A DNA stretch of 64,000 nucleotides, taken from NCBI RefSeq assembly GCF_021502675.1, contig NZ_JAKFHA010000007.1:116351-180350 (forward strand). The letters are read 5' to 3'. The notes under the pieces are model-generated. The model made no database searches. It was not told the DNA's origin and saw only the letters and a list, made by a program, of their open reading frames with translations. Position 1 is the stretch's first letter; each line of letters opens with the position of its first letter. The DNA comes from Yinghuangia soli. GTDB lineage: Bacteria > Actinomycetota > Actinomycetes > Streptomycetales > Streptomycetaceae. Below are positions 4,681 to 54,162 of the stretch, in pieces. A program made the position numbers and the translations under genes.

Positions 4681-4749
4681 GTTTCACGGCGTGTCGCGGC
4701 GTGTTTCGCACGGGTGACGGTTCCCGCACGAGTGTTTCGGGGACGTGAA
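4681..4749 (-). promoter_or_regulatory. GlnR operator upstream of amtB
   Basis: On the minus strand there are paired GlnR half-sites of the form gTnAC-n6-GAAAC. TTCAC-GTCCCC-GAAAC lies at 4734-4749, GTCAC-CCGTGC-GAAAC at 4703-4718, and an imperfect CGACA-CGCCGT-GAAAC at 4681-4696. The last two are exactly 22 nt apart, the canonical a-b/a-b spacing. They lie 70-140 nt upstream of the amtB start. GlnR control of amtB-glnK-glnD is established in Streptomyces; binding here is inferred from the match. Confidence 0.8.
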
Positions 4750-8478: not shown

Positions 8479-9503
8479 CCGCCAAGACCAAGGAGGACGC
8501 GGTCCCCGCGCCCGCGGCCGACGACGACGTCCTGCTCGACGTGGCCGGGCTGATCCAGAGCTTCCGGGTGCCCGGCGGCGTGATGAACGCGGTCGCCGGC
8601 GTGGACTTCCGGTTGCAGCGCGGCCGCACGCTCGGCCTGGTCGGCGAGTCCGGCTGCGGCAAGTCGACGCTGGCCCGGGCCATCCTGCAGCTCACCAAGC
8701 CCACCGCGGGCTCGGTGGTCTTCGACGGCCAGGACCTGACCAAGCTGTCCAAGGAAGGGCTGCGCGTCATGCGCCGCCGCATCCAGATGGTGTTCCAGGA
8801 CCCGATCTCGGCGCTCAACCCGCGCCGCAAGATCAAGGACATCGTCGCCGAGGGCCTGGTCATCTCCGGTGTGCCGGAGAACGAGATCGGACCGCGTGTC
8901 GAGGCCATGCTGCGCAAGGTCGGTCTCGACCCGGCGCTGGTCTCGGAGCGCCGGCCGCACCAGTTCTCCGGCGGCCAGTGCCAGCGCATCGCGATCGCGC
9001 GGGCCATGGTCGTCAACCCGGACCTGCTCATCTGCGACGAGCCGGTGGCCTCGCTGGACGTGTCGGTGCAGGCCCAGGTGCTGGACCTGCTGGACGACAT
9101 GAAGTCGTCCACCGGGGTCTCGATGATCTTCGTGGCGCACGACCTCGCGGTGGTCCGGAACATCAGCGACGACGTCGCGGTGATGTACCTGGGCACGATC
9201 TGCGAGACCGGCGACACGGACGCCATCTACGACAGCCCGGCGCACCCGTACACGCGGGCCCTCCTGGACGCGGTGCCGGCCCCGAACCCGGGTGCCGCGC
9301 ACGCCGGTCCGGCGCTGAAGGGCGAGATCCCCTCGCCCATGAACCCGCCCAGCGGGTGCCGGTTCCGGACCCGCTGCCCGCTGGCCAGTGAGCGCTGCGA
9401 GACCGAGGTCCCGCAGCTCCGCGAGGTCGCCCCGGGGCACCGGGTGGCCTGCCACTTCCCGCTCGTCGGGGACAACGAGGAGCCGGTCGCCGCCGCGTCC
9501 TGA
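8475..9503 (+). CDS. Oligopeptide-type ABC transporter ATP-binding protein (DppF/OppF-like)
   Basis: Second ATPase, 342 residues, of normal family length. The Walker A is GLVGESGCGKSTLARA, the signature FSGGQCQRIAIARAM, the Walker B LLICDEPVASLDVSVQ, and the H-loop FVAHDLAVV. The C-terminal oligopeptide domain has the cysteine pattern GCRFRTRCPLASERC and a later C in RVACHFP. A Cys replaces the common Arg in the signature (SGGQCQR rather than SGGQRQR). It pairs with the tailed ATPase upstream, with coupled starts. No binding-protein gene precedes the permeases; six follow instead. Confidence 0.92.
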   Translation: MTAKTKEDAVPAPAADDDVLLDVAGLIQSFRVPGGVMNAVAGVDFRLQRGRTLGLVGESGCGKSTLARAILQLTKPTAGSVVFDGQDLTKLSKEGLRVMRRRIQMVFQDPISALNPRRKIKDIVAEGLVISGVPENEIGPRVEAMLRKVGLDPALVSERRPHQFSGGQCQRIAIARAMVVNPDLLICDEPVASLDVSVQAQVLDLLDDMKSSTGVSMIFVAHDLAVVRNISDDVAVMYLGTICETGDTDAIYDSPAHPYTRALLDAVPAPNPGAAHAGPALKGEIPSPMNPPSGCRFRTRCPLASERCETEVPQLREVAPGHRVACHFPLVGDNEEPVAAAS

Positions 9504-9917
9504 CCGGCTCGCGGGCGCCGCCCGCACCGTACGGACCGCACGAATCGCACCTCGGTACACGCAGCACCGGCAATCAGCGCAGCACAACCGGTACACCGGC
9601 CGTCCGCCGGGCCGCGCAGCTCCAGGGCCGCGCGACCCGGCGGACGGCTTTCCCGGCGGGGGCGCCAAATCGCCGCCAACCGTCCGGAAGACGCACGCCT
9701 GCCCTGTAACGCCGTTATAGGACACGTGTCACTCCGGCACCCGTACACCGCCCTGCACCACGCGACACCCGGCATCACCGCAGGACGCCATCCCCGCAGC
9801 ACCGCAGCACCCGCACCGCGCACCACCACAGCACGTCCCGCACGCCGCACGTCCGCACCTCCACCGGCACCACCGGTCGGCCCCGCCGACCGGGCAACGC
9901 GTTAGGACCCGTCAGCA
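9504..9917 (+). other. Intergenic region before the first binding-protein gene
   Basis: The 414 bp contain no recognisable gene. Features seen: TGTAAC at 9705-9710, a perfect palindrome GACACGTGTC at 9721-9730 followed by AC (the cACGTGTCAC motif also seen at 5160-5169), and a G-poor, CAC-rich stretch from about 9730 to 9890. Similar C/A-rich leaders precede binding-protein genes 5 and 6. This is probably a separate promoter and long leader. Confidence 0.45.
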
Positions 9918-11519
9918 GTGGTACACGCACGACCCCCGCACCGCCCGGCCCGCCGCACGTTCGGCAGGCTCCGCAAGCCGCTCCTCCTCCTCGCCGCCGC
10001 CGGCCTCGTCCTGACCGCGGGCTGCGGTTCGGACGGCGGCACGCCGCTGGCGGCCGGCACCCCCAGGCAGGGCGGCACGATGACCGTGCTGCTGCCCGGC
10101 GAGGCCCGCGGCCTCGACCCGTTCACGGCCAGCTACATCAACGTGACCGACGGAAACCGGATGGCCGCGCTGTACGACATGCTCGTGTGGACGAACCCGT
10201 CCACCGGCACCGTGCAGATGCAGCTCGCCGAGAACCTCGTGCCCACCGACGCCGTCGCCAAGACCTGGATGCTGACGCTGCGTCCGGACATCAGGTTCAG
10301 CGACGGCGAGCCGTTCGATGCACAAGCCGTCAAGACGAACTGGGACCGGCACGCGCAGCCGGAGTTCAAGTCGGAGCAGCTCGGCGCGGTGCTGGGCGTG
10401 ACCACCGAGGTCGTGGACGCCCGCAACCTGCGGATCACCCTGCCCAAGCCCAATGCGAACTTCGACCGCATGGTGGCCCGGCACCTCACCTTCATCGCCT
10501 CGCCCAAGGCGATAGCGGGCGGCAAGTCGGCCGAAGAGCCGGTGGGCGCGGGGCCGTTCGTGATGGCGCCGGGCGGTTGGGTCAAGGGCCAGTCCCTGAC
10601 GCTGGAACGCAACCCGCGCTACTGGAAGGCCAGTGCGCCGTACCTGGACCGGGTCGTCTTCAGGGTCGACCCGAACCCGGCGAACATGACGGCGGCCATC
10701 AAGAGCGGCGACGCGGACGTCTCGGTGACCGTGGACCCGCTGGTCGCCGCGGCTGCGCAGCGCGAGAACCTGGGCCGTGAGGCGGTCACCCTCTCGGGCG
10801 GCCAGATGCTCTCCTTCAACACCGCCAAGGGCCCGTTCGCGGACGCCGATGCGCGCCGCGCGACCGCCTACGCGCTCGACGGCGCGGCGATCAACCAGCA
10901 GATCTTCGACGGCACCGGCACGGTCGCCCGCGGCCTGTTCTCCGGCTCCAGCCAGCTGGCCAACGTGCAGTTGGCCGCGCCGGACAACAACCCCGCGGAA
11001 GCCGCCCGGCTGTTCGCGAAGGTGACCGCCGACGGCACCAAGCCGCTGACCGCCACGCTGGTCATCCCGAACACCCCGGCCACCGTCAAGATCGCGCAGT
11101 ACGTGCAGACCACGCTCGCCAAGTACCCGGGCGTCAAGCTGACCGTCGAGGCGCTCGACCTTCCCGCGTTCATCTACCGGTCCAACGTGGAACGCCGGTT
11201 CGACGTCAAGGTCGACCAGATCTGGATCGACGACCCCGAGCCGCGGCTGTACGGCTTCCTCAAGGGCGGCGACCCGGGCAACTGCTGCTTCTACAACAAC
11301 CCCCAGGTCGACGAAGCGCTGCAGCGCGGCCGCGTGGCGACCGACATCGGGACCCGGCGCGACGCCTACACGCAGGTGCAGCTGGCGCTCAACCGGGACA
11401 TGCCGCTGTGGGTGTACCAAGAGGCCGTCGCCGTAGGGGTTTTCTCGTCGAAAGTCACCGGTGTGCAGATGTTCAACGACGGCGTTTTTCTCTTCGACCG
11501 AATCGGCATGAAGCGGTGA
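9918..11519 (+). CDS. ABC transporter family-5 solute-binding lipoprotein 1
   Basis: Extracellular substrate receptor, 533 residues, SBP_bac_5 (peptide/opine/nickel) family. The signal peptide has an arginine-rich start (RPARRTFGRLRK), a hydrophobic core and the lipobox LTAGC, so lipid anchoring is expected. Family landmarks are GGTMTVLLPGEARGLDPF at the mature N-terminus, FSDGEPFDAQAVKTNWDRH, the hinge-region motif VGAGPFVM, and WIDDPEPRLYGF. It ends VTGVQMFNDGVFLFDRIGMK. The start is GTG 9918. It groups with receptors 2 and 3 by its TPRxGG(T/S)xTxxLPG(E/D)A N-terminus. It presumably delivers ligand to the permease pair upstream. The ligand is unknown. Confidence 0.9.
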   Translation: MVHARPPHRPARRTFGRLRKPLLLLAAAGLVLTAGCGSDGGTPLAAGTPRQGGTMTVLLPGEARGLDPFTASYINVTDGNRMAALYDMLVWTNPSTGTVQMQLAENLVPTDAVAKTWMLTLRPDIRFSDGEPFDAQAVKTNWDRHAQPEFKSEQLGAVLGVTTEVVDARNLRITLPKPNANFDRMVARHLTFIASPKAIAGGKSAEEPVGAGPFVMAPGGWVKGQSLTLERNPRYWKASAPYLDRVVFRVDPNPANMTAAIKSGDADVSVTVDPLVAAAAQRENLGREAVTLSGGQMLSFNTAKGPFADADARRATAYALDGAAINQQIFDGTGTVARGLFSGSSQLANVQLAAPDNNPAEAARLFAKVTADGTKPLTATLVIPNTPATVKIAQYVQTTLAKYPGVKLTVEALDLPAFIYRSNVERRFDVKVDQIWIDDPEPRLYGFLKGGDPGNCCFYNNPQVDEALQRGRVATDIGTRRDAYTQVQLALNRDMPLWVYQEAVAVGVFSSKVTGVQMFNDGVFLFDRIGMKR

Positions 11520-11858
11520 CCGCATCGGATACCGCCCGGACCGAGATGGACCGCACCGACGACAAGCAGTAGAAAGGGGCAGCCCCGAGGACCGCAGAGA
11601 AGCCGGACGACGCATGCCGCGCGCCGCCCGGCCCCCTGTACCCGCGGAGCGGGGGGCCGGCCCACGGCGGGCACCGCGGCACGACCGGGCTCCTCCGTAC
11701 CGTCCGTACCGGAGCCCGGCAGCACGAAGCACGGAACCAAGCACAGCCGAACCACGCACAATCCGGAGCCTCTTCGGCCGTCCATCCCCCCGACGGAAGT
11801 CCGCAGAGGCCTCGGCCCCGCGCACCACCGCCGCCCGCTGCAACGGACGGCCCGTCAG
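11520..11858 (+). other. Intergenic region between binding-protein genes 1 and 2
   Basis: The 339 bp have no recognisable gene. An inverted repeat with a 9-bp GC stem (11628-11636 with 11652-11660) may be a terminator for gene 1. The rest is C-rich. No promoter hexamers stand out. Confidence 0.4.
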
Positions 11859-13511
11859 GTGAAGGTTGGCCCGTCAGTGACTCGTACTTCCCGCGACACC
11901 CGAATACCCCTTTTTCCCCGGCGGAATACCTCGTTCCGCCGGGGCCGTCTCCTCGCCGCCACCGCCGCCCTGGGCATCCTCCTTGCCGGGTGCGGCACGT
12001 CCGACGAATCGCCGCCTTCCCCCGCGGGGACCCCGCGCAAGGGCGGATCACTCACCATCACCCTGCCCGGCGACGCGGCGAGCTTCGACCCGGCGCAGAC
12101 CTCGTTCGTCAACGTCGCGGACGGCAGCCGCATGTCGGCCGTCTACGACTCCCTGGTGTGGACCGACCCGGCCACCGGGACGGTCCAGCCGAAGATCGCC
12201 GAGAGCCTGGTCCCGGTCGGCGCGCTGGCCGACAAGTGGGAGCTGCGCATCCGGCCGGGCATCAAGTTCACCGACGGCACGCCGTACGACGCCGCCGCGG
12301 TCAAGGCGAACTGGGCCCGGCACGCCGACTTCACACTGAAGTCGTTCCAGTTCCCGGCGGCGTTCACCATCGACCACGGGCAGACCACGGTGGACCCCGC
12401 GGACCCGCTGCGGCTGCTCATCACGCTCAAGGGCCGGAACGCGAACTTCGACCGCCTGGTCGCGCGCAATCTGTCCTTCATCGTCTCCCCCGAGGCGCTC
12501 AAGCCGGAGAATGTGCAGAAGCTGCGCACCACTCCGGTGGGCGCCGGCCCGTTCCTGCTGACCGAGTGGAAGCAGGGCGAGTCCCAGCGCTACGTCCGGA
12601 ACCAGAACTACTGGCAGAAGGACAAGGGGCTCCCCTACCTCGACGAGGTGGTCATCCGGGTCGACATCGACGTCAAGCGCAGCGTCGACGGGATCGGGAA
12701 GTCCTCCGACCTGATGCTCACCGTCGACCCGGAGAACATCAAGGCCGGCAAGGACCGCGGCCTGGGCGTCGAGGCGCTGCAGCTGAACGGCGGCGCGATG
12801 GTGCTGTTCAACACCAAGGTCGGGCCGTTCTCCGACGTGAAGGCGCGCCGCGCCATGGTGCTTTCGCTGAGCAGCGCGGAGATCAATGAGCGCTTCTACA
12901 ACAGCACCGGTACACCTGCCAAGGGCATCTTCAGCTCGTCCTCGCCGCTCGCCAGCGTCCAGCTGTCGGCGCCCGAGAACGACCCCGAGACGGCCCGCAA
13001 GCTCTGGAACGAGATCACCGCGAACGGCACCAAGCCGTTCGAGTTCCGCTACATCAGCCCGTCCGCACCCACCACCGTGGACGTGGCCCGGTTCATCCAG
13101 CAGAAGCTGAGCGCCTACCCCGGCGTGAAGATGACCATCGAACAGGTGGACATCCCCACCTACATCAAGACCGTGCGCAAGGGCCTGCCCTGGGACGCGG
13201 CCGTCGGCCAGCAGTGGATCGACGACCCGGAGCCCGGTATCTGGGACACGATCCACAGCCAGAGCCTGGCCAACTCCTCCGGCTACGAAAGCCCGGAGGT
13301 CGACAAGTCCCTGGCCGCCGCGCGCCTGCAGACCGACACCGACGCCCGTCGGGACTACTACACGCAGGTGCAGATGCGGCTCAACCAGGACCTGCCCTTC
13401 TGGGTTTACCAGGAGGCCGCCGCGGCCGCCTTGTACACCTCGAAGGTCACCGGCCTCGAACTGTTCAACGACGGACTCATCCACTGGGACGTCATCGGAC
13501 TGCGCCGGTAG
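11859..13511 (+). CDS. ABC transporter family-5 solute-binding lipoprotein 2
   Basis: Receptor of the SBP_bac_5 family, 550 residues from GTG 11859. An in-frame GTG at 11877, with AAGG 11 nt upstream, is an equally possible start. Signal peptide with arginines (RRGRLLAATAALG) and lipobox LLAGC. The body shares TPRKGGSLTITLPGDAASFDP, FTDGTPYDAAAVKANW, VGAGPFLLTEW and WIDDPEPGIWDT with its neighbours, and it ends FNDGLIHWDVIGLRR. It differs from receptor 1 in the middle domain (a VRVDIDVKRSVD-type insert region), consistent with a changed pocket. It is second in the tandem array of six. Confidence 0.9.
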   Translation: MKVGPSVTRTSRDTRIPLFPRRNTSFRRGRLLAATAALGILLAGCGTSDESPPSPAGTPRKGGSLTITLPGDAASFDPAQTSFVNVADGSRMSAVYDSLVWTDPATGTVQPKIAESLVPVGALADKWELRIRPGIKFTDGTPYDAAAVKANWARHADFTLKSFQFPAAFTIDHGQTTVDPADPLRLLITLKGRNANFDRLVARNLSFIVSPEALKPENVQKLRTTPVGAGPFLLTEWKQGESQRYVRNQNYWQKDKGLPYLDEVVIRVDIDVKRSVDGIGKSSDLMLTVDPENIKAGKDRGLGVEALQLNGGAMVLFNTKVGPFSDVKARRAMVLSLSSAEINERFYNSTGTPAKGIFSSSSPLASVQLSAPENDPETARKLWNEITANGTKPFEFRYISPSAPTTVDVARFIQQKLSAYPGVKMTIEQVDIPTYIKTVRKGLPWDAAVGQQWIDDPEPGIWDTIHSQSLANSSGYESPEVDKSLAAARLQTDTDARRDYYTQVQMRLNQDLPFWVYQEAAAAALYTSKVTGLELFNDGLIHWDVIGLRR

Positions 13512-13572
13512 TCCTGGGCGCACGGCTTCGCACCACCGCACCGCGAGCACTTCCTGCACGACGAGCACCAGA

Positions 13573-13600
13573 CCCCGCGCGCCCGCAAGGGCGCGCGGGG
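13573..13600 (+). terminator. Hairpin between binding-protein genes 2 and 3
   Basis: A perfect 12-bp GC stem (13573-13584 with 13589-13600) closed by a GCAA tetraloop sits 60 nt after the stop of gene 2 and 55 nt before gene 3. It may terminate or partly attenuate transcription into gene 3. Confidence 0.6.
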
Positions 13601-13654
13601 CCGCAAGGCGCACATCCGCAGCAAGGCCACGACACAGGTGGAGGTCAGAAGTCC

Positions 13655-15271
13655 GTGATTCGGCACGACCGTAAATGGGGGACGCGCAGGCGAAGAAGCC
13701 TGCGGACGATGCGGATCGGCTGCCTCGCGGCCGTGCTCGCGGTCCTGGCCGCGTGTTCACCATCGACCGGAACAGCCCCCGACCCGAACGGAACACCGCG
13801 GAAGGGGGGGACGATGACCATGCTGCTGCCCGGCGACGCCCGCGGTCTCGACCCCTACACCGCAAGTGCGAGCAACGTCGCGGACGGCAGCCGCCTGTCC
13901 GCGCTGTACGACGTGCTGGTGTGGAGCGACCCGGCCACCGGGACCATCCAGCCCCAGATGGCGGAATCGCTGGCCCCCGAGGGGGATGCGAGCAACTGGC
14001 TGCTCACGCTGCGGCCGGGCATCAAGTTCACCGACGGCGCCGACCTGGACGCCCAGGCCGTGCAGCGCGCGTGGCAGAAGCACCTGGACGCGAAGCTGCG
14101 CTCGGTGGGCGCCACGGCCCTCATCGGCGTCACCCTCACGGTCGAGGACAAGCTCCGGCTGCGCATCAAGCTGCCCGCGCCGAACGCCAACTTCGACCGC
14201 ATGGTCGCCCGGCTCCTCAACTTCATCCCGTCGCCGAACACCCTCGAACCGGCCGCGCTGGAAGCGTCGAAGCGCCAGCCGGTCGGCGCGGGACCGTACA
14301 AGTTGCGCGAGTGGGTCGCAGGTTCCCACATGACGCTGGACCGCAACCCCGGCTACTGGCAGGCCGGCGCGGGCAAGCCGCACCTGGACACGGTGGTCTT
14401 CAGGGTGAACGCCGACACTCCCGCGGCCACCCGGATGATCGATGCGGGCGATGCCGACATCACGGTGAGCACCGACATGCTGCTCATCGAGGAGGCCCGG
14501 GACCGCGGCCTGTCGGTGGGCGACATCCCGCTGAACGGCGGTCTCATGATCGTCTTCAACATGCGGGCCGACGAGGCGTTCGCCAACCCGGACCTGCGGC
14601 GCGCCGTGGTGCTGTCGCTGAACTCGCTGGAGATCGACAAGCGCTTCTACAACGGCATCGGCGCACCCGCCAAGGGCATCTTCGACTCGTCCTCGCCGCT
14701 GGCCAACGTCCTTCTCGCCTCGCCGGAGAACGACCCGGTGGAAGCCGCCACGCTGTTCGCGAAGGCCACCCAGAACGGCCGCAAGCCGCTCAGCCTGACG
14801 TACGTCGTGCCGCGCAGCCCCAAGGCCGAGACCATCGCGGCGTACATCAAGAGCCGGGTCGAGGAGACGTCCAAGAACACCGTGACCATGAACGTCGCGG
14901 TCGAGGACATCCCGAACTTCATCAAGCGCACGTCGCTCGATGCGAACTTCGATGCCGCGGTCTTCCAGCTGTGGGCCGACGACCCGGAGCCCGGGCTCTA
15001 CCAGTTCCTGCATTCCAAGGCCATGTACAGCAACGTCATGGGCTACAACAGCCCGCTCGTCGACCAGGCGCTGACCGAGGCGCGGAACACCAGCGACCAG
15101 GAGCAGCGCGCCCAGGCGTACACGAAGGTCCAGGTGCAGCTCAACAAGGACCTGCCGTTCTACGTGTACCAGGAAGCGGTCGCCGCGTACGTCTGCGCTC
15201 CGCGGGTCACCGGCCTGCAGCTGTTCAACGACGGCGTGCTGCTGTTCGACCGGATCGGGATGCGGAAGTGA
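13655..15271 (+). CDS. ABC transporter family-5 solute-binding lipoprotein 3
   Basis: Receptor of 538 residues. The GTG at 13655 is preceded by GTGGAGGTC 10-15 nt upstream. An in-frame ATG 18 codons later (MRIGCLAAVLAVLAAC) is an alternative. The N-terminus is strongly basic (TRRRRSLRT), then a hydrophobic stretch and lipobox LAAC. Landmarks are TPRKGGTMTMLLPGDARGLD, nearly identical to receptor 1, then FTDGADLDAQAVQRAW, VGAGPYKLREW, WADDPEPGLYQF, and the end LFNDGVLLFDRIGMRK. It clearly belongs to the subgroup of receptors 1-3. The ligand is unknown. Confidence 0.9.
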   Translation: MIRHDRKWGTRRRRSLRTMRIGCLAAVLAVLAACSPSTGTAPDPNGTPRKGGTMTMLLPGDARGLDPYTASASNVADGSRLSALYDVLVWSDPATGTIQPQMAESLAPEGDASNWLLTLRPGIKFTDGADLDAQAVQRAWQKHLDAKLRSVGATALIGVTLTVEDKLRLRIKLPAPNANFDRMVARLLNFIPSPNTLEPAALEASKRQPVGAGPYKLREWVAGSHMTLDRNPGYWQAGAGKPHLDTVVFRVNADTPAATRMIDAGDADITVSTDMLLIEEARDRGLSVGDIPLNGGLMIVFNMRADEAFANPDLRRAVVLSLNSLEIDKRFYNGIGAPAKGIFDSSSPLANVLLASPENDPVEAATLFAKATQNGRKPLSLTYVVPRSPKAETIAAYIKSRVEETSKNTVTMNVAVEDIPNFIKRTSLDANFDAAVFQLWADDPEPGLYQFLHSKAMYSNVMGYNSPLVDQALTEARNTSDQEQRAQAYTKVQVQLNKDLPFYVYQEAVAAYVCAPRVTGLQLFNDGVLLFDRIGMRK

Positions 15272-15423
15272 CCCGGCGGCGCGGTGTGCCCGCCCGCGGA
15301 AAGGACGAGGCCGTGACGTAGCCGGCCCCACGCGCCTGTGAGGCGCCCTTGTGCCGGCGGCCCGCCGGAACACCACCCGCTGCGCCGGATGCCCGGCCGG
15401 CGGGTGCCGTGCGGGCCGCCAGG

Positions 15424-15445
15424 GCGCCGGCCTGTCGGCCGGCGC
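15424..15445 (+). terminator. Hairpin upstream of binding-protein gene 4
   Basis: A 9-bp stem (15424-15432 with 15437-15445) and TGTC loop, 27 nt before the start of gene 4. It could terminate gene 3 or lie in the leader of gene 4. Confidence 0.4.
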
Positions 15446-15472
15446 AGTCCCTATGTGACCTGGAGGAGTCGC

Positions 15473-17023
15473 ATGCGGAAGAACCACATGAAGAAGGCGG
15501 CCGCACTGGCCGCTGCCGGGGCCTTGGCCCTGGGACTGAGCGGCTGCGGCGACAGCGACGACGGCGGTTCGGGAGCGAAGGGCGGGGACAAGTCCCTGAC
15601 CATCCTGGCCGTGTCGGACGCCCGTCAGTTCGAGCCGTTCCACGCCACCTACGCGGCGGTCACCGACCTCAACCGCATGCTGGCCGTGTACGACGCGCTG
15701 TTCTACACCGACAACGGCACCAACAAGATCGTCCCGCACATCGGCGAGAGCCTGACCACGGACGACGGCGGCGCCACCTGGACCCTGAAGATCAAGTCCG
15801 GGGTGAAGTTCAGCGACGGCACGGACTACAACGCCGAGGCCGTCAAGGCCAACTGGGACATGCACGCCAAGAAGGAGACCGGCAGCTACCACATAGCCGC
15901 CGCGGCGAGCCTGACCAGTGAGGTCGTCGACCCGCTGACCCTGCGCATCAAGCCGCTGGCGCCGAACGCCAATCTGGACCGGCTGATCGCGCTGGAGCTC
16001 ACCTACATCGCCTCGCCCAAGTCGCTGGCCGAGGACCCGAAGGGCGAGAAGCCGGTGGGTGCGGGGCCGTTCCTGCTCAAGCAGTGGGACAAGGGCTCGC
16101 AGATGGTGTTCGAGAAGAACCCGACGTACTGGCAGGGCGCCGGCAAGCCGGCCCTGGACAAGCTGGTCATCAAGGTGCTGCCGGACATCGCCCAGCAGCT
16201 CAACACCGTCAAGGCGGGCGGCGCCGACGCGTTCTTCACCATCGACCCGGAGAAGACCGCGAACGCCAAGAAGGACGGCCTCGCGCTCACCCCGTTCACG
16301 CTGGACGGCGGCCAGATGATGGCCTTCAACAGCACGAAGCCGCCCTTCGACGACCCGCGGGCCCGCCAGGCGGTCGCACTGGCCCTGGACCCCGCGAACC
16401 TGAACGAGACGGTCTTCGGGGGCACCGCCGTGCCCGCGAAGGGCATCTTCAACTCCAAGGACCGCTTCTTCGACGCGTCCGCGGTGCAGCCGGCCCCCGA
16501 CAAGGCGGCCGCGCAGCAGCTCTTCGACACGCTGGCGGCCGAGGGCAAGCCGGTGAAGTTCACCTACCTGGTGCCGGACAACCCGGCGTCCAACAAGACC
16601 GCCGAGTACACCATGACGGCGCTCAACGGGTTCAAGGGTGTCGAGGTCAAGCTCGAGAAGATCGACGTCAAGCAGTACACGAACAAGCTGAACATCCAGC
16701 GCGACTACCAGGCCGCGCTGTACCAGGTCTGGGCCAGCGACCCAGAGCCCATCATGTTCAAGCTGCTGATGTCGAAGAGCCCGGAGAACTTCATGGGCTA
16801 CAAGAACGAGGTCGTGGACCAGGCGCTGCTGGCCGGCCGGGCGAGCGCCGACGAGGCGGTGCGCAAGACCGCGTACGCGCAGCTGCAGAAGGCGCTGGTC
16901 ACCGACTTCCCGGTGGTCGCGTACCAGGAGGCGGTCACAGTCATCGTGGCCGGTCCGAAGGTCACCGGCATCGTCGGCGTCCAGGACGGCGGCATGCTGA
17001 TGGACCGGGTCACCAAGTCCTGA
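15473..17023 (+). CDS. ABC transporter family-5 solute-binding lipoprotein 4
   Basis: Receptor of 516 residues. ATG 15473 has GGAGGAG at the right distance. The signal peptide MRKNHMKKAAALAAAGALAL ends in lipobox LSGC. The mature N-terminus lacks the TPRKGG segment of receptors 1-3 and begins KSLTILAVSDARQFEPFHAT, like receptors 5 and 6. Other landmarks are FSDGTDYNAEAVKANWDMH, VGAGPFLLKQWDKGSQMVF, PAKGIFNSKDRF and WASDPEPIMFKLLMSKS. The C-terminus is the most diverged of the six (VGVQDGGMLMDRVTKS). It is the bridge between the two subgroups. A strong hairpin follows at 17030-17076. Confidence 0.9.
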   Translation: MRKNHMKKAAALAAAGALALGLSGCGDSDDGGSGAKGGDKSLTILAVSDARQFEPFHATYAAVTDLNRMLAVYDALFYTDNGTNKIVPHIGESLTTDDGGATWTLKIKSGVKFSDGTDYNAEAVKANWDMHAKKETGSYHIAAAASLTSEVVDPLTLRIKPLAPNANLDRLIALELTYIASPKSLAEDPKGEKPVGAGPFLLKQWDKGSQMVFEKNPTYWQGAGKPALDKLVIKVLPDIAQQLNTVKAGGADAFFTIDPEKTANAKKDGLALTPFTLDGGQMMAFNSTKPPFDDPRARQAVALALDPANLNETVFGGTAVPAKGIFNSKDRFFDASAVQPAPDKAAAQQLFDTLAAEGKPVKFTYLVPDNPASNKTAEYTMTALNGFKGVEVKLEKIDVKQYTNKLNIQRDYQAALYQVWASDPEPIMFKLLMSKSPENFMGYKNEVVDQALLAGRASADEAVRKTAYAQLQKALVTDFPVVAYQEAVTVIVAGPKVTGIVGVQDGGMLMDRVTKS

Positions 17024-17029
17024 CCCACG

Positions 17030-17076
17030 GGTGCCGCGGAGCCCTCCGGCCGCTTGCCGCAGGGCTCCGCGGCACC
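17030..17076 (+). terminator. Terminator after binding-protein gene 4
   Basis: A perfect 16-bp GC-rich stem (17030-17045 with 17061-17076) with a 15-nt loop begins 7 nt after the stop of gene 4. It suggests that genes 5 and 6 are transcribed from their own promoters. Confidence 0.75.
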
Positions 17077-17125
17077 ACCCGCTACTGCGCGTGCCGTTGA
17101 TCAGTGGCACATCCGAATCTGACGA

Positions 17126-17180
17126 TGTAACAGATTCGCGTCGCGGCGTGTCTTCACCGCATCCGCCGCCTACGGTGGCC
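17126..17180 (+). promoter_or_regulatory. Conserved upstream element of binding-protein gene 5
   Basis: TGTAACAGAT at 17126-17135 and TACGGTGGCC at 17171-17180, 45 nt apart start to start. The same pair, 46 nt apart, lies before gene 6. TGTAACA is itself palindromic around its central A. It may be a promoter with its start region, or an operator. Confidence 0.5.
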
Positions 17181-17382
17181 GGACATCACCACGCACCACC
17201 TGCACATCGGTACCTCTGCACACCCGCACGTTCGTACTTCCGCACGACCGCACTGCACACCCAGCACACCTTGCACACGCTCCATCCCCCAGGCCGCCCC
17301 GGCGGCCCGGGAACCGCACGGCAGCACGATCAGGCCGGCCCCTGTCCGGCCGCCACGTACTCGCCAGGAGGAGGCAAGAACG

Positions 17383-18999
17383 GTGTCAGCACGACGTACG
17401 GCACGACCCGGGTTCGGCAAGTCGGCCCGCCGCCGCGGCAGCGGTGTCGTCGCGGCCCTGGTGGCCTTGGGGCTCGCGGCCACCGCATGCAGCGAGGACA
17501 AGAAGGACAAGGAGCCCGCGCCCCCGAACCAGGGGGCCACCGCCGAGGCGAAGCCCGGCGGCACCTTGCGGATGCTCGCGGTGCAGGACTCCGCGCGGCT
17601 CGACCCCTTCGGCACGTCCAATGTCGCGGTCGCGGACGAGCCGCGCCTCGCGGCCTTGTACGACCCGCTGTTCTACATCGACGGGAAGAGCAAGAAGGTC
17701 GCGGCCCACCTGGGCGAATCGCTTGCCACCACCGACAACGGCGCCAGTTGGACCATGAAGCTGCGGCCGGGCGTGCAGTTCAGCGACGGCACGCCCTTCA
17801 ATGCCGAAGCGGTCAAGAAGAACTACGACATGCACGCCAACTTCGCGACCAGGTCCGTGCACATCGGCGCGGCGGCCACGTTCAAGACCGAGGTCGTCGA
17901 CCCGCTGACACTGAAGCTCACCCCGCAGGGCGCGCCCAACCCCAACCTGGACCGCGCCATCGCGATCGAACTGCCGTACATCGAGGCGCCGTCGGCGCTC
18001 GACAAGGGTGCGGAGACGTACCAGGGCAGCCCGGTCGGCGCCGGACCGTTCATGCTCAAGAGCTGGACGCGCGGCTCCGAGCAGGTCTTCGTCAAGAACC
18101 CGAACTACTGGCAGAAGGACAAGGGCCTGCCCAAGCTGGACGGGTTCTCGGTCAAGCTGCTGGCCGACATCCAGCAGCAGTTCGCGAGCGTTAAGTCCGG
18201 GCAGGCCGACCTGTTCGTCAGCTCGGACCAGAAGCTCCTGGAGAAGGCCCGCAAGGAGCTCAACGCGTCGGAGTTCAAGACCGACGGCGGCCAGATGATG
18301 CAGTTCAACATGAAGAAGCCGCCGTTCGACGACATCCGGGCGCGCAAGGCGGTCACGCTGGCGCTGAACCCCGCGGACATCCCGGCCACGCTCGACAACG
18401 GCTATGTGCCGGCCAAGGGATTCTTCAACGCGGCCGGCGTGTTCGCCGACCCGAACATCTCCCAGGCGGCGCAGAACACCGCCGAGGCGCAGCGGCTGTT
18501 CGACGAACTGGCGAACGAGGGCAAGAAGCTCGAATTCTCCTACCTGGTGCCGCTCAACCCGTCGTCGCAGAAGGTCGCCGAGTTCATGCAGAGCCGGCTG
18601 CGCACCTTCAAGAACGTCAACATGACGATCGACGCGGTGGAGATCGGCCAGTACATCCAGAAGTACGCGATCAGCCGCGAGTTCCAGGGCATGCTCTTCC
18701 AGCAGTGGGTGGTCGACCCCGAGCCGACCCTCTACAGCTCGCTGTACTCCAAGAGCATGTTCAACGTCATCGGCTGGAACAGCCCGGCCGCCGACGCCGC
18801 GCTCGACAAGGGCCGGCAGAGCTCGGACCCCGCGGTCCGCAAGCAGGCCTACTCCGAGCTGCAGAAGGCGCTCGTGGACGAGCTGCCCATGTGGGTGTAC
18901 GCGGAGTCCTCGAACGGGCCGATCTTCAACGACAAGGTGACCGGCATCGAGCACTACAACTCGGGCGTCATGTTCATGGACCGGATCGGCTTCAAGTAG
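17383..18999 (+). CDS. ABC transporter family-5 solute-binding lipoprotein 5
   Basis: Receptor of 538 residues from GTG 17383 with a strong AGGAGGAGG site. The signal peptide is MSARRTARPGFGKSARRR followed by a hydrophobic core and lipobox ATAC. Mature landmarks are LRMLAVQDSARLDPF, VAVADEPRLAALYDPLFYID, FSDGTPFNAEAVKKNYDMH, VGAGPFMLKSWTRGSEQVFV and KPPFDDIRARKAVTLALNP. It is very close to receptor 6 through most of its length, including identical stretches such as NPNYWQKDKGLPK. It ends HYNSGVMFMDRIGFK. Recent duplication with gene 6 is evident. Confidence 0.92.
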   Translation: MSARRTARPGFGKSARRRGSGVVAALVALGLAATACSEDKKDKEPAPPNQGATAEAKPGGTLRMLAVQDSARLDPFGTSNVAVADEPRLAALYDPLFYIDGKSKKVAAHLGESLATTDNGASWTMKLRPGVQFSDGTPFNAEAVKKNYDMHANFATRSVHIGAAATFKTEVVDPLTLKLTPQGAPNPNLDRAIAIELPYIEAPSALDKGAETYQGSPVGAGPFMLKSWTRGSEQVFVKNPNYWQKDKGLPKLDGFSVKLLADIQQQFASVKSGQADLFVSSDQKLLEKARKELNASEFKTDGGQMMQFNMKKPPFDDIRARKAVTLALNPADIPATLDNGYVPAKGFFNAAGVFADPNISQAAQNTAEAQRLFDELANEGKKLEFSYLVPLNPSSQKVAEFMQSRLRTFKNVNMTIDAVEIGQYIQKYAISREFQGMLFQQWVVDPEPTLYSSLYSKSMFNVIGWNSPAADAALDKGRQSSDPAVRKQAYSELQKALVDELPMWVYAESSNGPIFNDKVTGIEHYNSGVMFMDRIGFK

Positions 19000-19074
19000 G
19001 CCGGCCCCGCCCCGCACCCCCGCGGCCCCGGCCGCACCGCGGGAACTGACGAGGCGTCACCTCGGGTGACCGCG

Positions 19075-19105
19075 CAGCGCCCCTCCGTCGAACGGAGGGG
19101 CGCTG
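19075..19105 (+). terminator. Terminator after binding-protein gene 5
   Basis: A perfect 14-bp stem (19075-19088 with 19092-19105) with a CGA loop, about 75 nt after the stop of gene 5. Confidence 0.85.
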
Positions 19106-19133
19106 CTGCATGTCCGGGAAACGACAAAGAAAC

Positions 19134-19196
19134 TTGACTGTGTAACAGATCGGCTTCGGATGCGTGCATGTTGGGGCAACTGCTCTTACGGTGGCC
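19134..19196 (+). promoter_or_regulatory. Conserved upstream element / promoter of binding-protein gene 6
   Basis: TTGACT at 19134-19139 overlaps the start of TGTAACAGAT (19141-19150); TACGGTGGCC follows at 19187-19196. The matching elements before gene 5 have CTGACG in place of TTGACT. No clear TATAAT-like -10 is present at 17-18 nt, so an alternative sigma factor or activator-dependent promoter is possible. Confidence 0.5.
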
Positions 19197-19257
19197 CCCA
19201 GCGCACAAGATCCGTGATCTGTCGCACACGTGTGGGGGGCGGCGCTTCGCCGGCTCA

Positions 19258-19354
19258 TGACCCGCTCGACCAGCACAATCTGCACGACCTGCACAACCTG
19301 CTCGACTGCTCGATCTGTACGACTGCTCGACCTGTACGACCTGCACGGCCAAGG
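19258..19354 (+). repeat. 9-nt degenerate tandem repeats in the gene 6 leader
   Basis: Units of the form CTG(C/T)(A/T)C(A/G)AC, such as CTGCACGAC, CTGCACAAC, CTGCTCGAC and CTGTACGAC, recur about nine times with small slips. The array lies between the conserved promoter element and the ribosome binding site. The strand is strikingly poor in G for this genome. Confidence 0.65.
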
Positions 19355-19427
19355 CTCCACAAGCACGACAGCACAATCCGACCGGCCCCTGTCCGGTCGT
19401 CATGTTCTCGGCGGAGGTGGCAAGACG

Positions 19428-21074
19428 GTGTCAGCACGACGCACGGCAGCACGACGCACCATCAGCACGGCAATACCCGCGGCGAACGGCCGAACCGGCC
19501 TCGCCCGGCTGCGCGCCCGCGGCACCGTGGTGGCAGGCCTCGCGGCCGTCGCCCTGACCGCGACCGCCTGCGGCGGCGACAGCGACAAGAAGAGCGGCGG
19601 GAACAGCGAGACGGGGGGCACCCCCAAGAACGGCGGCAAGCTCACCATGCTCGCCGTCCAGGACTCCAAGAGCCTGGACGTGTTCCGCACCTCCTACGTC
19701 GCGGTCGCGGACGAGCCCCGCCTCGCCGCGCTCTACGACCCGATGTTCTACATCGACACCAAGACCGGCGCGGTCAAGCCGCACCTGGCCGAGTCGCTGT
19801 CGACCGCCGACAACGGCGCCACCTGGACCCTGAAGCTGCGCCCCGGCGTGCAGTTCAGCGACGGCACGCCGTTCAACGCCGAGGCCGTCAAGATCAACTA
19901 CGAGGCGCACGGCAAGGCGGAGACCCAGTCCCTGCACCGCGCCGCGGCCATGATGATCAAGACCGAGGTGGTCGACGAGACCACCGTCAAGATCACCAAC
20001 CTGACCGGCCCGAACCCGAACTTCGACCGCACCGTCGCCACCGAGCTGACGTACATCGAAGCGCCTTCGGCGATCAGCAAGGGCATCGACCAGGCCGGCC
20101 AGAACCCGGTCGGCGCCGGCCCGTTCATGCTGAAGAACTGGGTCCGCGGCAGCCACCAGGAGTTCGTGAAGAACCCGAACTACTGGCAGAAGGACAAGGG
20201 CCTGCCCAAGGTCGACGAAGTCGTCATCAAGAACGTCCCGGACATCAAGCAGCAGTACAACACCGTGAAGTCCGGCGGTGCGGACATCTTCCACAGCTCG
20301 GACGGCGCGCGCCTGGAAGAGGCCGCCAAGGAGCTGCAGGTCCAGAAGATGGCCGACCTCGGCGGCCAGATGATCCAGTTCAACATGAACAAGCCGCCGT
20401 TCGACGACATCCGGGCCCGCCAGGCGCTGTCGCTGGCCTTCGACCCGGCGGACATCCCGAAGCAGCTCAACAACGGGTACGTCCCGGCGAAGAGCTACTT
20501 CAACGAGTCGTCGCAGTTCTTCGACCCGACCGCGGTCCAGCCGGCGCAGAACAAGGAGAAGGCGCAGCAGCTGCTCGACGCGCTCGCCGCCGAGGGCAAG
20601 CCCCTCTCCTTCGACTTCCTCATCCCGCAGAACCCGTCCTCGCAGGCGGTGGCGGAGTACATGCAGAGCCGCCTGGCGCAGATGAAGAACGTCACCATGA
20701 AGATCCAGTCGCTGGAGATCGGCCAGTACATCCAGAAGTACGCGATCCAGCGCGACTTCACCGCGATGCTGTTCCAGCAGTGGAACGTGGACCCCGAGCC
20801 GGTCCTGTTCAACTCGTTCCACTCGAAGAGCCTGCTCAACTTCGTGGGCTGGCGCAGCCCGGCGGCGGACGCGGCCCTGGAGGCCGGCCGCGCCAGCACC
20901 GACCCGGCGGCCCGCAAGGCGGCCTACGCCGAGCTGCAGAAGGCGATGATCGCCGACCTGCCGGTCTGGGTGTACGCCGAGTCGCTGATCGGCCCGATCT
21001 ACTCCAAGAAGGTCACCGGTGTCGAGCAGTACAACACCGGCGTCGTCTTCATGGACCGGATCGGCTTCAAGTAG
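19428..21074 (+). CDS. ABC transporter family-5 solute-binding lipoprotein 6
   Basis: Receptor of 548 residues from GTG 19428 with GGAGGTGGCAAGAC upstream. It has a long basic leader (MSARRTAARRTISTAIPAAN), a hydrophobic core VVAGLAAVALTATAC and lipobox TATAC. Landmarks are LTMLAVQDSKSLDVF, VAVADEPRLAALYDPMFYID, FSDGTPFNAEAVKINYEAHG, VGAGPFMLKNWVRGSHQEFV, KPPFDDIRARQALSLAFDP and WNVDPEPVLFNSF. The C-terminal QYNTGVVFMDRIGFK parallels receptor 5. Differences from receptor 5 concentrate around residues 150-200 and 270-310. The last gene of the transporter block, it converges on nsdA. Confidence 0.92.
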   Translation: MSARRTAARRTISTAIPAANGRTGLARLRARGTVVAGLAAVALTATACGGDSDKKSGGNSETGGTPKNGGKLTMLAVQDSKSLDVFRTSYVAVADEPRLAALYDPMFYIDTKTGAVKPHLAESLSTADNGATWTLKLRPGVQFSDGTPFNAEAVKINYEAHGKAETQSLHRAAAMMIKTEVVDETTVKITNLTGPNPNFDRTVATELTYIEAPSAISKGIDQAGQNPVGAGPFMLKNWVRGSHQEFVKNPNYWQKDKGLPKVDEVVIKNVPDIKQQYNTVKSGGADIFHSSDGARLEEAAKELQVQKMADLGGQMIQFNMNKPPFDDIRARQALSLAFDPADIPKQLNNGYVPAKSYFNESSQFFDPTAVQPAQNKEKAQQLLDALAAEGKPLSFDFLIPQNPSSQAVAEYMQSRLAQMKNVTMKIQSLEIGQYIQKYAIQRDFTAMLFQQWNVDPEPVLFNSFHSKSLLNFVGWRSPAADAALEAGRASTDPAARKAAYAELQKAMIADLPVWVYAESLIGPIYSKKVTGVEQYNTGVVFMDRIGFK

Positions 21075-21145
21075 GCCGGCCCGCGCTGCGCGGCACGGCC
21101 CGGCAGGGCGCGACGCAGCACAGCGCAGCCGCACCGCAGTTCCAC

Positions 21146-21175
21146 GGCGCCCCTCCGCACCCGCGGAGGGGCGCC
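21146..21175 (+). terminator. Terminator between binding-protein gene 6 and nsdA
   Basis: A perfect 13-bp stem (21146-21158 with 21163-21175), ACCC loop, followed by GCCCCTTTT on the plus strand. It serves gene 6 and possibly nsdA from the other side. Confidence 0.85.
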
Positions 21176-21213
21176 GCCCCTTTTGCGGCCGGTTCCGGAC
21201 CGCCGCAGCAGGC

Positions 21214-22779
21214 TCAAGGCGACGGGAACGCCGCCTCGGGCAGCTCGCCGAGGAGCCGGTCGGCCAACCGGCGTACCGGCGGCAGCTCGCCGAACAGGTC
21301 CACCGCGCTCTTCGCGGTGCGCCGCAGCCGCGAGCTCAGCCGCTCCGAGCGCACCTTGCCGGCCAGCGCCAGCGCCCCGGACGCCGCCTCGCAGGCCGGC
21401 TCGGCCTCGCGCTCCAGGACGTACACCGCGGCCAGCCCGACCCGGGACAGCGCCAGCGACCTGCGGTACTCCGCGGTGCCCTCGAAGAGCCGCACCGCCT
21501 TCTCCAGCGGCTCGCGGGCGCGTTCGGCCGGTCCGGCCCCGCGGTACGCCAGGTCGCGGTACGCATGGCCGACCTCGGAGGAGAACTCGGCCTCGCCGAA
21601 GTACCGGATCCAGTCCGGCTCGTCTCCTTCCGGTGCGTCCGCGTGCAGCTGCTCGGCGACGCTGAGCGCGCGCCGGCACTTGTCCGCCTGCCCGAGCCCC
21701 GCGTGCGCCCGGCCCTCGACCGCGTACAGCATCGCCTGGGTCCGCGGCCCGGCACTGTCGCGGGAGCCGTACTGCGCAAGATGGATCAGCTCCAGGGCGT
21801 CGGACGGCCGGTCCAGATGGATCATCTGACGGCTCATCACGCCCAGCACGTTGGCGCCCAGCGGCCGGTCTCCGGCCTCCTTGGCGGCGTGCAGCGCGAG
21901 CACGAAGTACTTCTGCGCGCCCGGCTGCATGCCGACGTCGTACGACATCCACCCGGCCAGCAGCGCGAGTTCGGCGGTGAGCCGGAACAAGCGGTCGCGC
22001 ACCGGTTCCGGATAGGCATCCTGCAGAAGGTCGGTCACCTCCTGCAGCTGGCCCACCACGGCCTTGCGCCGCAGCCCGCCGCCGCACTGCATGTCCCAGC
22101 TGCGGAACAGCCTTACGGTCTCCTCCAGTTGCTCCAGCTCGCCGAGCCCGAGGCGGCCGCGCGCCTGCGGACCGCGGGGCGGCAGCGGGGGCACCGGGAC
22201 CGGCGCCAGCCAGCGCTGCATCGGCTCGACCAGCGCCGGGCCCGCGGACAGCGCGAGCGAGGCCCCCAGGAAGCCCCGGCGGCCCAGCATCAAGTCGCTG
22301 CGCGAGAACTCGCCGAGCAGGTCGACCACCGACTCCGGGGCCCACGGCAGGTCCACGCCCGACCCGGTGAACAGCGCCCCCGGCTCCTTGAAGCCGAGGT
22401 CCTCCACCGCGACCACGCAGCCGAAGTGCTCGCTGAACAACTCGGAGATGATGCGCGGTATCGGATCGCGCGGCTGCTCGCCGTCGAGCCAGCGCCGCAC
22501 CCGCGAGGTGTCGGTGCTGACATGCAGCGCCCCGAGCCGCCGGGCCCGGCGGTTCACCTGGCGGGCGAACTCGCCCTTGGACCAGCCGGTGCGCTCGAAC
22601 CACGACGCGAGCCGGTCGTTGGGCTGCTTGCCGCCGGATATGCGGGTCCCCGGGCCCAGGGCCGGCAGGGGCGGCTCGAAGCGCGCGCCGAAGCGGCCGT
22701 CGTCGGCGGGTCCGCCGGACGGGATGCCGTACGGCTCGCCGACTGCTTGGCCGTCGGCTTCGGTCTGTGCGATCGTCAC
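21214..22779 (-). CDS. nsdA: NsdA-like TPR regulator of differentiation and antibiotic production
   Basis: NsdA is a conserved Streptomyces protein whose loss increases sporulation and antibiotic production in S. coelicolor. The 521-residue protein has a DNA-binding-like N-terminal region (LASWFERTGWSKGEFARQVN...DTSRVRRWLDGEQP) followed by helical TPR-type repeats to the C-terminus (for example QAMLYAVEGRAHAGLGQADK). The GTG at 22779 is preceded by AGGGGGAGAG. It lies beside amtB in S. coelicolor but is 16 kb from it here. Divergent from the primase-like gene. The identification rests on architecture and synteny. Confidence 0.85.
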   Translation of the reverse strand: MTIAQTEADGQAVGEPYGIPSGGPADDGRFGARFEPPLPALGPGTRISGGKQPNDRLASWFERTGWSKGEFARQVNRRARRLGALHVSTDTSRVRRWLDGEQPRDPIPRIISELFSEHFGCVVAVEDLGFKEPGALFTGSGVDLPWAPESVVDLLGEFSRSDLMLGRRGFLGASLALSAGPALVEPMQRWLAPVPVPPLPPRGPQARGRLGLGELEQLEETVRLFRSWDMQCGGGLRRKAVVGQLQEVTDLLQDAYPEPVRDRLFRLTAELALLAGWMSYDVGMQPGAQKYFVLALHAAKEAGDRPLGANVLGVMSRQMIHLDRPSDALELIHLAQYGSRDSAGPRTQAMLYAVEGRAHAGLGQADKCRRALSVAEQLHADAPEGDEPDWIRYFGEAEFSSEVGHAYRDLAYRGAGPAERAREPLEKAVRLFEGTAEYRRSLALSRVGLAAVYVLEREAEPACEAASGALALAGKVRSERLSSRLRRTAKSAVDLFGELPPVRRLADRLLGELPEAAFPSP

Positions 22780-54127: not shown

Positions 54128-54162
54128 GTAACGAGATGGTCACGTAGCGGTCAAGTGACCGC

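Follow-up and report, generated by a model that had tools for sequence, protein, structure and literature searches.

Organization of the receptor locus

The window considered here, a 64-kb stretch of the Yinghuangia soli genome, encodes an ABC transporter of the peptide/nickel class, with genes for two permeases and two ATPases, and behind it six tandem SBP_bac_5 receptor genes (9918-21074); more paralogues of the receptors lie elsewhere in the genome. The locus is bordered by an ammonium-transporter/P-II gene pair and by a gene for an SRP54-type GTPase, probably ftsY. The SBP_bac_5 assignment was made by Pfam match for five of the six receptors, and receptor 3 (13814-15271) was placed with them by its reading frame and its position in the receptor tree. 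The array is syntenic in Yinghuangia seranimata (G001, NZ_JASAOI010000038.1) and in genomes G005, G020 and G030, and its order recurs in a second genus (g4), probably Embleya, which has five receptors. The receptor cluster yielded no candidate regulator gene.

Receptor 5 (17383-18999) and receptor 6 (19428-21074), both on the plus strand, are each preceded by the same pair of short sequences. The box TGTAACAGAT lies at 17126-17135 and 19141-19150 on the plus strand, and a second 10-mer, TACGGTGGCC, at 17171-17180 and 19187-19196. The start-to-start distance between the two is 45 nt before receptor 5 and 46 nt before receptor 6, and the box begins 257 and 287 nt before the respective GTG start codons (17383 and 19428). 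A position check confirmed these spacings, as given in the initial annotation, and the pair had a mean count of 0.00 in 100 shuffles of the window. A scan of the 9.7-Mb genome (G000) for the exact pair returned two places only, upstream of receptors 5 and 6. On its own, TGTAACAGAT has three exact copies in the genome and 27 matches with at most one mismatch, compared with 31 for a reversed control; the single 10-mer is not widespread, and a wide regulon was rejected because the near-matches do not exceed the control. Of the near-matches, 26 could be read, the other (L152) lying at a contig edge. A TANNNT hexamer follows at 44-46 nt in four of those that were readable; three of these precede receptors of the clade to which receptors 5 and 6 belong, and the fourth (L137) has no receptor match and, by hand count, no TG of the kind described below.

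Distribution and conservation of the block

When 297 genomes of the family were scanned, the motif was found at 10 places in eight of them, with one place for the control. Two places each fall in the Y. soli and Y. seranimata genomes and one in each of three g4 genomes; the remaining three are single places in G021, G108 and G230, where no receptor gene was recognised by eye. The looser pattern GTAACAGA-N34-38-TANNNT, applied to seven genomes of the two genera, gave eight matches (control 0), all eight preceding receptors of the receptor 5/6 clade. A fourth g4 genome, G037, falls outside this pattern; its receptor 6 orthologue is 65% identical and its leader reads TGTAACGATGTAACAAAT, with the box in the form TGTAACAAAT 46 nt from TACGGT. 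In genome G002 the motif is missing and no close receptor was found (best 37% in the protein search). Orthologues were identified by searching with proteins in sets of 51 and 2 genomes; the block was present upstream of all six receptor 6 orthologues found, in both genera, of both receptor 5 genes, and of one dispersed paralogue.

The dispersed copy, G000:C50, was newly found through the looser pattern and belongs to a distant orphan receptor on another contig. Its neighbourhood (L124, 2195-14436) includes amidohydrolase, GntR/FCD regulator, luciferase-like, acyl-CoA dehydrogenase and enoyl-CoA hydratase genes, and no permease was detected among the seven neighbouring proteins scanned. The C50 leader aligns with that of receptor 5 with a local score of 27, reached by 16 of 500 shuffles, and with that of receptor 6 with a score of 23, reached by 89 of 500, in an alignment that does not lie at the block; both comparisons are weak when taken alone.

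Between the window and g4, the receptor 6 leaders have the block and the ribosome-binding region in common, with little else alignable. The local alignment of the window receptor 6 leader scores 44 against that of G005 (shuffle maximum 30) and 49 against that of G037 (shuffle maximum 34), and the window receptor 5 leader scores 30 against the G005 receptor 6 leader (shuffle maximum 28), with 0 of 500 shuffles reaching the score in each case. Within the window, the best local match between the receptor 5 and receptor 6 leaders is a C-rich repeat rather than the block (score 28, matched or exceeded in 47 of 500 shuffles); the case for the block is carried by the exact pair and by the other genomes. 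C-rich repeats of the CTGCACGACCTG type occupy 19270-19350 in the receptor 6 leader and are largely missing from the short receptor 6 leader of Y. seranimata. The persistence of the block in two genera, amid leaders that are mostly unalignable, supports the proposal that it is selected promoter or operator sequence, as does the varying position of its -10 element, 49 to 241 nt ahead of the start codon in five genes.

In a tree of 44 receptors the nine carriers of the block fall inside a single clade of 13 rows with support of 100/100; this tree used the reading 13814-15271 for receptor 3, and three g4 receptor 4 rows contained stops, which were written as X. The carrier label changes three times on the tree, compared with 8.4 times in shuffles, none of which (0/500) was as low. 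Neither TGTAAC nor GTAACA was found in the fetched flanks of the four non-carriers of the clade, which form the dispersed pairs C48/C18 and C34/C25. In the simplest history the block would have been gained once at the base of the clade, multiplied through duplication and lost twice.

Anatomy of the probable promoter

The initial annotation had noted that no ordinary -10 element is present. This holds for an E. coli-type promoter scan of 16900-19500, which returned no promoter-like sites. Two studies report that Streptomyces promoters have a TANNNT -10 element, a TGAC -35 element and spacers of mostly 18-19 nt (PMC4895711, PMC6742748). By this measure TACGGT, at 17171-17176 before receptor 5 and 19187-19192 before receptor 6, is a predicted -10 element. 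TANNNT is found in nine of nine copies of the block, a count in which the looser pattern itself demanded TANNNT, but eight copies had been found earlier through TACGGT or by protein search. A TG dinucleotide stands exactly 22 nt upstream of TANNNT, also in nine of nine, which corresponds to TGNN followed by an 18-nt spacer. In the window it lies within weak -35-like hexamers, GTGTCT for receptor 5 (17148-17153) and GTGCAT for receptor 6 (19164-19169). The intervening sequence differs greatly among receptor 5, receptor 6 and C50, and the constancy of the TG-to-TANNNT distance is therefore informative. Because TACGGT fits TANNNT and the 22-nt distance is of the housekeeping type, the alternative sigma factor that had been invoked to account for a missing -10 element is not supported.

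The block resembles Streptomyces housekeeping (HrdB-type) promoters, as these are described in the sources above, in its TANNNT -10 element, the TG at -35 and the 18-nt spacer. It differs from them in that the AC of TGAC is not kept at the -35 position, which reads TGCA, TGTC or TGCC across the copies, and in having a conserved box at a distance from the -10 element of 44 nt in C50, 45 nt for receptor 5 and 46 nt for receptor 6. The distance from the -10 element to the start codon was measured in five genes and is 49, 106, 117, 212 or 241 nt.

In g4 the upstream element is an 8-bp direct repeat, TGTAACGA/TGTAACAG, with the half-site TGTAAC. In Yinghuangia the first half of the repeat is fainter, as TCTGAC 8 bp before the receptor 5 box (17118-17123, plus strand) or CTTGAC 8 bp before the receptor 6 box (19133-19138, plus strand), and it is lost in C50, whose box reads GGTAACAGAT. 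From the exact pair, the genome scan and the alignment of the copies, we regard TGTAACAGAT before each of the two receptors as a putative regulator site. A perfect palindrome around the receptor 5 box, CGAATCTG/CAGATTCG, was rejected as the conserved element, since by eye the receptor 5 leader of Y. seranimata keeps ATCTG/CAGAT only and that of receptor 6 has none of it.

A TGTAAC upstream of receptor 1 (9705) had been listed as a partial further copy of the motif. The hexamer exists, and it is one half of a different element, the imperfect 17-bp inverted repeat CTGTAACGCCGTTATAG (9704-9720; CTGTAAC-GCC-GTTATAG), so that it was rejected as a third copy of the block. The same repeat occurs without mismatch, and much nearer the gene, before receptor 1 of Y. 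seranimata. A two-mismatch search for CTGTAAC-NCC-GTTATAG gave 12 sites in five genomes (control 2). Similar sites of the form CTGTNACACCGTTACAG occur in both genera next to unrelated genes, among them cupin, luciferase-like and acetoacetate decarboxylase genes. This is a separate, operator-like element.

A proposed promoter and its alternatives

We propose that each block serves its own receptor gene as a promoter, with a housekeeping -10 element, a weak -35 element and an upstream activator site, and that the copies have one origin and would be switched together; we put the probability of this reading at roughly 0.7. TACGGT would serve as the housekeeping-type -10 element, and the weak -35 element would be supplied by the NTG hexamer 17 nt upstream. 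Transcription would start 7 nt after the -10 element, which places the box at about -58 to -49. TGTAACAGAT, together with the fainter half-site 8 bp further up, would then bind a regulator acting in trans. This would most likely be an activator, given the poor -35 element and the position of the box, which is usual for activators. The dedicated activator of the initial annotation remains plausible.

The same anatomy is also compatible with the box being the operator of a repressor acting over a housekeeping promoter, and sequence cannot tell activation from repression. A box placed well upstream of a weak -35 element would, however, suit activation better, and we regard repression as unlikely.

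A promoter for an ECF-type sigma factor would have its -35 element at TGTAAC and its -10 element at CGTG, 15-16 nt downstream, with TACGGT being transcribed. TGTAAC resembles CGTAAC, the -35 element for sigma BldN, and CGTG follows TGTAAC in eight of nine copies. Unlike promoters of the BldN kind, however, the block has no -10 element at a fixed distance: TGTAAC and CGTG are separated by 15 nt before receptor 5 and 16 nt before receptor 6, whereas the distance from CGTG to TACGGT is constant, and C50 has no CGTG at the expected place. The variable distance and the C50 copy thus argue that TGTAAC and CGTG are not a -35/-10 pair, and the retention of TANNNT in every copy is a further point against a transcribed TACGGT. 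An ECF sigma factor accordingly appears improbable as the reader of the block.

GlnR is an obvious candidate for the regulator, since amtB is adjacent and the GlnR half-site is given as GTnAC in PMC3087709; a highly similar sequence is recognised by MtrA, according to PMC9045223 (see also PMC10704036). Either protein would tie the receptors to the neighbouring amtB/P-II genes. We scored the locus with a matrix built from 39 published GlnR sites, with amtB as a positive control. Two strong sites on the amtB side score 14.4-17.1 in all five genomes in which this stretch was scored, and their recovery indicates that the test works; in the window they lie upstream of amtB on the minus strand (4703-4749; 17.1 and 15.4), and the four other genomes have them at the equivalent location. 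The sequence GAAAC-n6-GAAAC at 19118-19133, just upstream of the receptor 6 box, is GlnR-like (13.9) and the third best site in the first 24 kb after the two amtB sites, but it is not kept in Y. seranimata or g4. Around the receptor 5 box the best score reaches 2.7 for the window and 1.9 for Y. seranimata, and the receptor 6 box area in the other five genomes scores 3.9, 2.2, 3.9, 11.3 and 6.0. The block is like the GlnR/MtrA boxes in its GTAAC half-site and in having GlnR sites nearby at amtB, but it lacks the GTnAC-n6-GTnAC/GAAAC period, no such box is kept in the orthologues, and the g4 repeat is of 8 bp and not 11. These results do not support GlnR as the protein that reads the box, and we consider it quite improbable; the same outcome is expected for MtrA, which is reported to recognise a highly similar sequence. 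An effect of GlnR on receptor 6 of this strain is possible. Elsewhere in the window, two overlapping GlnR-like sites (13.9 and 13.2) lie between converging predicted genes at 54128-54154.

A leader RNA element, such as a riboswitch or attenuator, might be entertained given that the leaders of this strain, as counted from the predicted start, measure about 200-230 nt, but we give it almost no weight, because the -10-to-start distance is variable (49 nt from the start of the -10 element to the start codon for receptor 6 of Y. seranimata) and covariance-model searches of 9400-21300 gave no Rfam matches up to an E-value of 0.1.

Implications

The activator-dependent promoter proposed above may have arisen once, at the base of the receptor 5/6 clade, and then been carried along by gene duplication. 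Because the block would have been inherited in this way, receptor 5, receptor 6 and the C50 receptor are expected to switch together. More tentatively, it is possible that a dedicated activator reads (TGTRAC-N2-)TGTAACAGAT and that its private regulon consists of receptors of this clade only, including C50 on another contig. In searches of papers open without subscription for TGTAAC with Streptomyces binding, for GTAACAGAT with promoter, and for Yinghuangia ABC transporter, no account of the motif appeared among the matches listed. The block reads as a lineage-restricted, probably activator-dependent promoter common to duplicated receptor genes, newly described here and itself of an ordinary kind.

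For annotation of high-GC actinobacteria more widely, any reading of a missing -10 element calls for a comparison with TANNNT before an alternative sigma factor is proposed. For Yinghuangia and its relatives, the block provides a testable cis-element for a lineage-specific receptor expansion, in which six tandem receptors stand beside one ABC importer and two of them share a common promoter with a remote paralogue. If a private regulon of the kind suggested above exists, a single ABC importer would have been re-equipped with several co-regulated receptors.
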